Virus record (IMG/VR): IMGVR_UViG_3300042392_001083
Coordinates: 1-21,051 of that record
Origin: a virus
Direction: 5' to 3' (one strand)
Length of the DNA: 21,051 bases
Position numbers and translations under genes: made by a program. Below, one piece after another: positions 13,369 to 15,366 of this stretch. Under the pieces are notes generated by a model that saw nothing but the letters and a program-made list of their open reading frames with translations, made no database searches and had not been told where the DNA came from. Within the stretch, counting starts at the first letter, position 1. Each line of letters opens with the position of its first letter.

Positions 13369-13734
13369 GTGATAAAAAAAAGTAAAAAAATAGTGCCTTT
13401 AGAGGAAATTGAGCAGAAAATAGTCATCCAGTACCTACGTTCTGTCCATCCCAATGTCCTTTATTGTGCTTCTGCTGGTGGGATGAGGACATCTATGCGA
13501 CAAGCAATCAAGATGAAGCAGATGGGATATATAGCTGGTTTCCCAGACTTATTCATTTACGAGCAGCGAAATGGTTTTGCTGGTCTTGCTATTGAAATGA
13601 AACGAGTGAGTGGTGGTGTGGCTTCGCCAGAACAGAAGCAATGGAAGTCACATCTTCTGCTCAATGGATATGCTGCATACATTTGCAAAGGTGCAGATGA
13701 AGCGATCAAAATTATAGATGAATATTTCAAGTGA
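13369..13734 (+). CDS. VRR-NUC domain nuclease
   Basis: A 121-residue nuclease of the PD-(D/E)xK type. The start appears to be GTG at 13369, giving (M)IKKSKKIVPLEEIEQK; no ATG lies before the domain. Active-site residues are visible: E15 in the first helix, D60 (GYIAGFPDLFIY), E76 and K78 (AIEMKR), then SPEQKQWKSHLLLNGYAAYI, which is the conserved VRR-NUC ending. Family members cut branched or recombination DNA; in phages they sit near replication genes and may resolve junctions before packaging. It overlaps the next gene by 17 bp. Confidence 0.9.
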   Translation: MIKKSKKIVPLEEIEQKIVIQYLRSVHPNVLYCASAGGMRTSMRQAIKMKQMGYIAGFPDLFIYEQRNGFAGLAIEMKRVSGGVASPEQKQWKSHLLLNGYAAYICKGADEAIKIIDEYFK

Positions 13735-14212
13735 TACATATAATCGACTATTGATTAGCGCACATAAGATTGCGCCAACATCAGATGATGCTTACGAGTT
13801 GCTTCATTTCACTCTCACTTATCTGGACTTAAAAAACGACATTGTATTCACTTTTCCCGACTTACAACAATTCAGTTATATAAATAGGGCAATGTATATG
13901 GGCTGGAACTTTCCATCGTCACCATTCTATCGGCAGTACAGACATCAACAAATATCCTATGTTGAACACATTGATGATGTAGATGATTCTGGTATGACTG
14001 ACGTTCTGAATATTGAACTGCTCGACATTGCCATCAGCAGACTTCCAGAACACGAACAATACATTATCAACGCATATCTGCAAGGTGACTTCGACTATGA
14101 ATACTGGAGCGCAATAGCTGGATGTTCTGTTGACTACCTATACACATACATAAATAAAATCAAATCAAAAATCAAATCATATGTGGTTCGCTGCAAAACA
14201 AATAGTAGATGA
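13718..14212 (+). CDS. Sigma-70-like RNA polymerase factor (phage type)
   Basis: A 164-residue protein. The first ~60 residues (SSDTYNRLLISAHKIAP, DDAYELLHFTLTYL, then SYINRAMYMGWN and FYRQYRH) resemble the region 2 layout of small sigma factors. Residues about 105-155 (LPEHEQYIINAYLQGDFDYE, YWSAIAGCSVDYLYTYINKIKSKIK) fit region 4 with its helix-turn-helix. I recall such divergent sigma-like proteins in Bacteroidota phages. It may direct the host polymerase to late phage promoters. It overlaps the nuclease gene by 17 bp and the next gene by 32 bp. The similarity is weak in region 2, so a generic HTH protein is the alternative. Confidence 0.68.
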   Translation: MNISSDTYNRLLISAHKIAPTSDDAYELLHFTLTYLDLKNDIVFTFPDLQQFSYINRAMYMGWNFPSSPFYRQYRHQQISYVEHIDDVDDSGMTDVLNIELLDIAISRLPEHEQYIINAYLQGDFDYEYWSAIAGCSVDYLYTYINKIKSKIKSYVVRCKTNSR

Positions 14213-14588
14213 GCGCAGAGCCATCTGCAAGAGTTGTCAATTCTTCAATAAAGGATGGTGTGGTAAAGCATTCATTCCAGAAACTCACAAAATCAAAAAG
14301 AAAACATATCACACTTGTGGATGCAACATATATCTCAAAACTCAATTCAGCAATCAGTATTGTCCAAATCAATTCTGGAAAAGCACTGGTAAGTTGACTG
14401 AACAAGAAAGAGCAGAAATCAAGAAGTTGATAGGTGAAATAAAGAACGATGAATTGACCAAAGAACAATACAATCTACTATACAACTATGCAGATAAGAT
14501 TGTGGGTGGAACGCACAGAAGGACATCGTGCGAACCTTGTTTGAAAGATTTGGTGTCAAAACTCAAAGCATCAGTTATTGATGCGTAG
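14181..14588 (+). CDS. Cysteine-rich putative zinc-binding protein
   Basis: A 135-residue protein. The N-terminal ~67 residues hold a cysteine set, CKSC, WCGK, HTCGC and YCPNQFW, which fits a zinc ribbon. I recall this 'R...C..C..f....C.......kTCgC.l..K.....CP...W' pattern from small phage proteins in this host group. The middle is a helical EQERAEIKKLIGEIK segment, and the C-terminus has SCEPCLKDL, a further Cys pair. Function unknown; single-strand nucleic-acid or protein binding is possible. It is the last gene before a strong terminator. Confidence 0.72.
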   Translation: MWFAAKQIVDERRAICKSCQFFNKGWCGKAFIPETHKIKKKTYHTCGCNIYLKTQFSNQYCPNQFWKSTGKLTEQERAEIKKLIGEIKNDELTKEQYNLLYNYADKIVGGTHRRTSCEPCLKDLVSKLKASVIDA

Positions 14589-14640
14589 ATTTGCATCGCA
14601 TTAGAGTTTCCTTGTTTTATTGTGTGGTTATTCAAAGAGA

Positions 14641-14675
14641 GAAGTCAGGCATAGTGCTTGGCTTCTTTTGTTTTT
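14641..14675 (+). terminator. Rho-independent terminator after the nuclease/sigma-like block
   Basis: GAAGTCAGGCA pairs with TGCTTGGCTTC around a TAG loop: 11 bp with two G-T wobbles, extended further by AGAG/TTTT pairing. It is followed by TTTTGTTTTT. It lies 52 bp after the stop of the Cys-rich protein gene and would end the 13369-14588 transcript. Confidence 0.85.
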
Positions 14676-14704: not shown

Positions 14705-14735
14705 TTGACCATTCAAAATAATCATTCAATATTTG
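14705..14735 (+). promoter_or_regulatory. Candidate promoter of a small RNA (TTG-N20-AATATTTG)
   Basis: TTG at 14705-14707 and AATATTTG at 14728-14735 are separated by 20 bases. This fits the Bacteroidota TTG / TAnnTTTG promoter with a single mismatch (A for T at the first position of the second box). A start of transcription near 14741-14743 is expected. No coding frame follows before the terminator at 14808. Confidence 0.55.
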
Positions 14736-14741
14736 TCACGC

Positions 14742-14843
14742 ATTACATAACTACTCAATATCCCACCATTGATTAGTTGTGTGTGTAGGTTTCTTCTTGA
14801 AACTTTGAGAGCAGTAATGGTGGGATTACTGCTCTTTTTTTTT
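14742..14843 (+). ncRNA. Candidate free-standing small RNA, about 100 nt
   Basis: The stretch is bounded by a promoter-like sequence on the left and a perfect terminator on the right, with no coding frame of its own. In order it holds ATCCCACCATT (14760-14770), a short hairpin GTTTC-TTCTT-GAAAC (14789-14803) and the terminal hairpin. The first element is an exact 11-base complement of 14816-14826, which is the terminator loop GGTGGG plus flanking stem bases. The RNA could thus form a pseudoknot-like contact (CCCACC with GGTGGG) or switch between two folds. The start point is inferred, expression is not shown, and I recognise no known RNA family. Confidence 0.5.
14808..14843 (+). terminator. 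Rho-independent terminator of the candidate small RNA
   Basis: AGAGCAGTAAT (14808-14818) pairs perfectly with ATTACTGCTCT (14825-14835) around the loop GGTGGG, followed by a run of T to 14843. It is a second terminator only 130 bp after the first, so it does not serve the upstream genes and implies a separate transcript. Confidence 0.88.
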
Positions 14844-14855
14844 ACATAACACACG

Positions 14856-14936
14856 AATCACGATTGGCAATGTGATTGGAAGATGCCTACACTTGCAATA
14901 TACCAATGCTTGGATCGCGCAACTGCTCTATTGAGC
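14856..14936. repeat. Cluster of three short inverted repeats
   Basis: AATCAC (14856-14861) / GTGATT (14872-14877), CCAA-TGC-TTGG (14903-14913) and GCTC-TATT-GAGC (14925-14936) follow each other within 81 bp, directly before a pyrimidine tract. No convincing gene covers them. They could be part of an RNA leader, a replication origin or protein-binding sites. Each repeat alone is short enough to be chance. Confidence 0.35.
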
Positions 14937-14948
14937 GAGAGATTTATT

Positions 14949-15027
14949 GTTTCTTTTTTGTACGTTTTTTCTTTCTTTTTTCTTTTCTTTTTTACCTTTT
15001 TTTGTTTTTCTTTTTTCTTTCTTTTTG
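14949..15027 (+). other. Homopyrimidine (T/C) tract, ~80 bp
   Basis: Nearly all bases are T or C on the plus strand, broken only by a few purines (for example at 14960-14964, 14994 and 15004). Units such as CTTTCTTTTTTCTTTTC give near mirror symmetry, as in triplex-forming DNA. The strand asymmetry is unlike any other place in the window. Open frames through it encode only poly-Phe or poly-Lys and are not genes. It may be an origin-associated unwinding element or a control region. Confidence 0.7.
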
Positions 15028-15053: not shown

Positions 15054-15061
15054 TAACTTTG
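15054..15061 (+). promoter_or_regulatory. TAACTTTG promoter box, 5 nt before a start codon
   Basis: TAACTTTG matches the Bacteroidota -7 box TAnnTTTG exactly and is followed by CTTCT and then the ATG at 15067. The usual -33 TTG is not at the expected spacing; the nearest TTG (15025-15027) is 26 bases upstream. If active, transcription would begin at or next to the start codon, giving a leaderless mRNA for the rightward late genes. Confidence 0.5.
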
Positions 15062-15066
15062 CTTCT

Positions 15067-15366
15067 ATGAATGAATTATCACAAGAAAAAATTGATGAAG
15101 TAATCCAACTCGTTGCAAATACAGAAATGGATGTCCTGGTCAAGACTCTGAAAGCAAAGAACTTTTCTTTCAAGAGCGAAAAAGCATTATCTCGATTTGT
15201 AAGAAACAATCTCATAAAGACTTCCAGAGATAACACGATAACCTATCATTACAAGGAATATGGTAGTGGTGTTCTTCACTTTCTTTTTTCAATCACCAAA
15301 GAAATAATAACGGAAGGTGATTCAATCAAACTGAATCTCAATATCAATAATGGTTCTAATGAATAG
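15067..15366 (+). CDS. Hypothetical protein, 99 aa
   Basis: A 99-residue soluble protein, first gene of the right-hand plus-strand block. It begins with a helical half (SQEKIDEVIQLVANTEMDVL, VKTLKAKNFSFKSEKALSRF) and ends with a beta-type half (TITYHYKEYGSGVLHFLFSI, DSIKLNLNINNGSN). No family is recognised. It follows a TAACTTTG box by 5 bases and overlaps the lipoprotein gene by 8 bp. Confidence 0.62.
   Translation: MNELSQEKIDEVIQLVANTEMDVLVKTLKAKNFSFKSEKALSRFVRNNLIKTSRDNTITYHYKEYGSGVLHFLFSITKEIITEGDSIKLNLNINNGSNE

Follow-up and report, generated by a model that had tools for sequence, protein, structure and literature searches.

A candidate stand-alone phage RNA whose 5' part is predicted to lock onto its own terminator loop, in a clade with a probable Bacteroidota host

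Our analysis points to a stand-alone non-coding RNA, probably one with its 5' part locked to the loop of its intrinsic terminator, in a clade of phages that probably infect Bacteroidota. The window, i.e., the whole stretch of DNA analysed here, is a 21,051-base virus record of a tailed phage. In its RNA, a kissing contact of 6-7 bp would tie the loop of hairpin 1 to the terminator loop, while elsewhere in the clade the transcript would pair with the terminator loop directly through its first 6-11 nucleotides. This predicted structure is well supported by comparison between phages, and it marks a phage RNA family that is absent from Rfam and is defined by a pairing rule, not by sequence.

Among cultured phages, the closest terminases belong to Flavobacterium phage 11b (40%), Cellulophaga phage phi10:1 and Bacteroides phages. 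These terminases, together with the TAnnTTTG-like boxes described below, make a host among the Bacteroidota very probable. Genome contigs searched for the VRR gene gave only two matches, both unrelated, and no host was found. Upstream of the RNA, the genes for a VRR nuclease, a sigma-like protein and a Cys-rich protein form an operon (13369-14588) whose order is kept in the relatives, and this operon and the RNA may be functionally linked. The operon is separated from the next one (15067 onwards) by a gap of 480 bp, which contains, in order, a terminator, the pattern TTG-N20-AATATTTG, the candidate RNA and a second terminator (Table 1). The first of these, a separate terminator for the upstream operon, had already been pointed out in the preliminary description and was found as described; its equivalent is missing in L041-type relatives, where the promoter of the RNA overlaps the end of the Cys-rich gene.

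Table 1 Coordinates of the candidate RNA, its parts and its upstream neighbours in the window, and loop pairs of distant relatives.
Feature	Position	Strand	Sequence or make-up	Basis or remark
VRR-nuclease gene	start 13369			upstream of the RNA
Sigma-like protein gene	start 13718			upstream of the RNA
Cys-rich protein gene	start 14181			upstream of the RNA
Separate terminator of the VRR/sigma-like/Cys-rich operon	14637-14669	+		retained in L002, partly in L003
Predicted Bacteroidota-type promoter	14705-14735	+	TTG (14705-14707), 20-nt spacing, AATATTTG (14728-14735)	read from sequence; box conserved in L002 and L003
Candidate small RNA	14740-14843	+	predicted +1 at 14740, ends in T-run	fold, z = -6.97
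Hairpin 1	14740-14786	+	stem, 1x1 mismatch, 5 bp, 8-nt loop AUCCCACC (14760-14767)	fold
5' kissing partner	14761-14767	+	UCCCACC	pairs with 14819-14825; swap matrices, covariation
Hairpin 2	14787-14805	+	core GUUUC-UUCUU-GAAAC	fold; small hairpin 2 also in architecture-A relatives
Hairpin 3 (intrinsic terminator)	14807-14843	+	loop GGUGGG (14819-14824), then T-run	fold
3' kissing partner (terminator loop)	14819-14825	+	GGUGGGA	swap matrices, covariation
Loops of L041			UCGAGAC/GUCUCGA	
Loops of L048			CGACAAC/GUUGUCG	
Loops of L050 and L085			CGGAAUC/GAUUCCG	
Loops of L054			CAAUCAC/GUGAUUG	
Loops of L093			CUGCAACC/GGUUGCAG	

The promoter layout given in the preliminary description is present in the window. 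Taken alone, this pattern is not significant (7 matches in the window vs 3.4 expected), the initial T of TAnnTTTG is absent from the -7 box, and the promoter is weak there. The earlier proposal that the RNA has its own promoter is nevertheless credible because distant relatives carry perfect TAnnTTTG boxes in the same place, not because of the match in the window. In Flavobacterium, TAnnTTTG spans -12 to -5 (PMC9723704), and the +1 predicted by this rule is exactly the first base of hairpin 1. The RNA is predicted to be transcribed from its own promoter by the host RNA polymerase and to be stopped by the intrinsic terminator.

The window RNA folds into three successive hairpins with an energy of -38.6 kcal/mol, 7 SD better than shuffles, in agreement with the earlier reading of a structured RNA of about 100 nt. 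The terminator has the loop GGTGGG and the T-run that had been reported, while its stem (14807-14836) consists of 12 pairs, not 11. The hairpin-1 loop is complementary to the terminator loop GGUGGG and, as stated before, ATCCCACCATT (14760-14770) is the exact reverse complement of AATGGTGGGAT (14816-14826). However, forcing the full 11-bp pairing yields -25.5 kcal/mol, which is 13 kcal/mol worse than the three-hairpin fold, and the terminator would break; for this reason we read the contact in the window RNA as loop to loop and not as an antiterminator. A covariance model gave an E of 1e-26 for 14740-14843, a value that holds by construction, and elsewhere in the window it made no other strong match.

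Two close relatives, L002 and L003, with Cys-rich proteins 93% and 84% identical to that of the window phage, retain the promoter box, the three hairpins and the core complementarity, and the RNAs of the close relatives fold 5.6-5.7 SD better than shuffles. One terminator stem pair is changed from A-U to G-C in L002, and in L003 the loop pairing is reduced to CCACC/GGUGG and a flanking A-U. The complement that relatives keep is therefore a loop-loop core of 6-7 nt (6 of 7 pairs in L002 and L003, 7-8 in distant relatives) and not the full 11 nt of the preliminary description. Both phages also carry, right after the terminator, ACTACACAACT, which complements the 3' arm of hairpin 1, AGTTGTGT, is altered in the window and is possibly the remnant of a duplication.

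Because the loops and stems of the distant relatives have unrelated sequences, the covariance model built on the three close ones does not reach them, and they had to be located by synteny. A terminase scan led to distant phages with 67% identical terminase and the gene order of the window, and across a large phage clade the RNA occupies a fixed syntenic spot after the VRR-nuclease, sigma-like and Cys-rich genes. The RNAs of architecture A come with a TAnnTTTG box, followed by hairpin 1 (loop of 8-9 nt), hairpin 2 and a terminator that has a stem of 9-10 bp and a loop of 8 nt; in L041, L048, L050 and L054 a TTG lies 19 nt upstream of the box, and the mismatch, 5 bp and 8-nt loop of hairpin 1 are seen again in L050 and L054. 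Their loops are unrelated in sequence to those of the window and mostly to each other, yet they are complementary within each RNA (Table 1). Swapping loops between phages abolishes the complementarity: in swap matrices of loops extracted automatically from a pseudoknot-free fold, own partners match over 5-8 nt and most foreign ones over 2-4; those outside this range come mainly from relatives that have an identical or near-identical loop.

Covariation gives the same picture. In the kissing helix of architecture A, the window and the close relatives, 98.3% of the cells are paired (63.6% in shuffles), double changes number 40 (12.4 in shuffles), and both sides have changed in six of the seven pairs. 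The covariation score of the helix is 0.960 compared with 0.232 after shuffling, a value reached by none of 500 shuffles, and slid registers score only 0.07-0.21. As MAFFT was unable to align the hypervariable parts, the pair counts refer to helix arms excised by hand, and automated scans without hand-cut arms agree with them. The covariation check and the swap matrices therefore both speak for the loop contact that the preliminary description had suggested.

The pace of loop change can be set against that of the neighbouring gene. The Cys-rich proteins of L041, L048, L050 and L054 are 96-99% identical, and dS between the neighbouring Cys-rich genes is 0.35-0.99, from which it follows that the loops turn over at least as fast as silent sites, a pace that is no proof of positive selection. 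Furthermore, the stretch around hairpin 2 is near-identical in L041, L048 and L050 while both flanking loops differ, and because the region between them is so similar, the two loops must have changed jointly and not as one swapped block. Comparison of the phages shows, for the predicted RNA, the three-hairpin fold and a selection that keeps the loops paired while their sequence turns over. This matched turnover of both loops amounts to a natural experiment on loop-loop recognition.

Where terminase or VRR identity is down to about 55%, phages carry a shorter RNA at the equivalent spot, for which we distinguish architectures B and C. Here the terminator stem usually has an internal loop (U-U/U-U or similar), and the terminator loop is complementary to the predicted first transcribed bases. 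Of 36 sequences, 34 have a 5' partner that begins at most 1 base from the predicted +1. Covariation is 0.433 in architecture B (0.145 shuffled) and 0.628 in architecture C (0.229 shuffled), with 0 of 500 shuffles reaching either value, and architecture C retains a AUUACUGU...GAUUUAAGG stretch between the helices. These RNAs are not alignable with that of the window and have in common with it the position, the promoter and the pairing logic; from place, promoter and the shared pairing of the terminator loop with the 5' part, we infer that they are homologous to it. A generic detector, which looks for a -7 box followed within 150 nt by a terminator-like hairpin whose loop is complementary over at least 6 nt to an upstream segment, was positive at the expected place in 39 of 61 loci, compared with 1 of 61 on the reverse strand and 1 in same-strand upstream regions. 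Among the 22 loci it missed are several with C-type RNAs, which fall outside the stem settings of the rule.

Such a family is nearly invisible to sequence search, and the rule itself can serve as a template for finding more of its kind. No family of Rfam 15 matched at gathering score, in line with the earlier remark that no known family fits; the best sub-threshold score in the window was that of suhB (24.5 bits vs a threshold of 41), covering the terminator half. The exact terminator sequence had no match in viral contigs, a gapped stem pattern found there only the two known close relatives and coincidences in coding sequence, and blastn against cultured phages and plasmids returned nothing relevant. 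Neither tRNA nor tmRNA was found in the neighbouring intergenic RNAs. The consulted portions of two comparative RNA surveys (PMC2864571, PMC8040213) name no such motif.

The region 3' of the RNA has features of its own. A second conserved element at 14888-14956, ACTTGC-AAYAYACCAAYGCTTGG-AACGAGCAACT with a small hairpin, is present in at least 15 relatives; its fold alone is weak (z -1.6), and its hairpin stem covaries (GCTC/GAGC in the window, GCCC/GGGC in L101, ACTC/GAGT in L121). Adjoining it is a pyrimidine tract of about 80 nt (14949-15027, 93% C+T), possibly a leader, packaging or replication signal. Just after or instead of the RNA, element and tract are replaced in L054, L093, L041, L048, L064, L069, L070, L074, L097, L099, L113, L112 and L115 by structured-looking non-coding sequences of roughly 200-400 nt, of several types that recur between phages and had no Rfam or tRNA match among those searched. 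L050 and L085, otherwise near-identical here, carry different DNA methyltransferase genes in one slot after the RNA; the slot resembles a place where anti-restriction cargo is exchanged, and the genes are no more than a hint of an anti-defence region. The next operon has its own box (15054-15061, in TAACTTTG of the region 15054-15069) 5 bases before its ATG, so that its mRNA would be nearly leaderless; this TAnnTTTG box is conserved in relatives, and in L050 the predicted +1 is the A of the ATG.

In the explanation we favour, the tie between the 5' part and the terminator loop would bury the 5' end against the 3' terminator and give a compact, knotted and stable RNA, which would resist 5'-end-dependent decay and build up in the infected cell. 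Whether the accumulated RNA then acts in trans on a component of the host or of a competing phage, and not as antisense to its own genome, is a tentative suggestion that we hold with considerable doubt. Antisense matches to the phage's own sequence showed no excess over shuffles, so the target search named in the preliminary description came out negative there, and this also counts against a trans-acting antisense small RNA or sponge working via exposed loops. The size and the promoter/terminator layout are those of bacterial small RNAs, but the loops are occupied by each other and are wholly different between phages with a 96-99% identical neighbouring protein, and we consider this reading highly improbable. 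That the RNA is only an elaborate insulating terminator, stabilised by the loop pairing, would suit the L041-type relatives, in which no other terminator was seen after the Cys-rich gene; it is very unlikely given that the RNA has a predicted promoter of its own, that another terminator lies just upstream in the window, L002 and L003, that a 12-bp stem with a T-run needs no help and that a plain terminator would not predict loop-specific covariation.

The preliminary description had also considered a switch between terminator and antiterminator folds. As a cis-acting regulated terminator, the 5' element would pair with the terminator loop before the 3' arm is made, delaying or permitting termination and controlling read-through to the late operon. 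The RNA does lie on the same strand between the operon of the sigma-like regulator and the structural operon; the 5' helix of architectures B and C can be the first to form, and some of them (e.g., L165, L121) have 0-1 nt between the helices, so that both cannot complete together. A kinetic switch may operate, above all in relatives whose 5' end is itself the partner of the terminator loop. In the window, however, the switched fold is disfavoured by its energy, only the loop nucleotides are conserved, and control of read-through is unlikely because the downstream operon keeps its own promoter box and the sequence in between varies among relatives (element and pyrimidine tract, methyltransferases, other RNAs). 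Overall, we judge this alternative unlikely. The contact may instead join two molecules, an alternative to be taken seriously for architecture A, because simple geometry suggests that an intramolecular 7-bp kiss is strained with hairpin 2 folded. Kissing complexes stack their stems end to end, and across a linker of 24-29 nt with hairpin 2 folded the stem bases would be hard to join in one molecule. The loops of L041, L048, L050 and L054, with 8 nt, 7 of them paired, and one unpaired A, have a make-up similar to that of known dimerising kissing loops. The two loops of phi29 pRNA covary likewise (PMC12670572). Two copies of such a self-recognising RNA would be linked by two kisses, each between the terminator loop of one and the 5' element of the other, into a closed dimer or ring; the loops would form a private lineage code deciding which RNAs assemble, and loop changes would bar joining with the RNAs of other phages competing in the same cell. 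Against this, in architectures B and C the free 5' end has a possible partner inside its own molecule, Rfam does not class the RNA as a pRNA, and the terminase genes of the phage are of the ordinary sort. Overall, we consider intermolecular assembly quite unlikely.

Several known systems share single traits with the locked RNA proposed here. Attenuators and pseudoknot-controlled terminators likewise have a 5' element that pairs with part of an intrinsic terminator, whereas here the loop alone is paired and not the stem arms, no conserved gene follows directly 3', and a promoter box lies downstream. An attenuator or switch is disfavoured, as the competing terminator-breaking fold is not of similar energy (-25.5 vs -38.6 kcal/mol) and no conserved gene depends on read-through, the downstream content being variable and the operon having its own TAnnTTTG box. 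A type III toxin-antitoxin RNA, with its tandem short pseudoknot repeats ahead of a toxin gene, does not fit either: the window holds no second strong copy, and the next gene (15067) matches no family. The HK022 put antiterminator RNA, which acts in cis on RNA polymerase so that it passes later terminators, and the lambda 6S/oop RNA are short phage RNAs with hairpins that precede an operon, late or other, and we know of no loop-terminator complementarity of this kind in them. ColE1-type RNAI and RNAII have fully complementary 7-nt hairpin loops whose variation sets specificity; unlike in that pair, both loops here are on one strand, in one RNA with a single promoter and terminator, and there is no antisense partner transcript. 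STAXI, a pseudoknotted candidate RNA found near DNA-handling genes, is described in the consulted part of the survey (PMC2864571) as two or three tandem repeats, in contrast to the one copy here, which has no Rfam hit. The RNA of phage phi29 differs in more respects: the window RNA has three successive hairpins, no three-way junction and no Rfam pRNA match, pairs over 6-8 bp and not 3-4, has a predicted promoter of its own and an intrinsic terminator whose loop provides one of the two partners, and belongs to a different type of phage, a tailed one with a terminase large subunit (TerL) and a TerS-like gene, for which a role of the RNA as part of the DNA packaging motor is unlikely. What phi29 pRNA and the RNA described here have in common is that each is a small phage RNA with two mutually complementary loops that covary between phages while staying complementary (PMC12670572).
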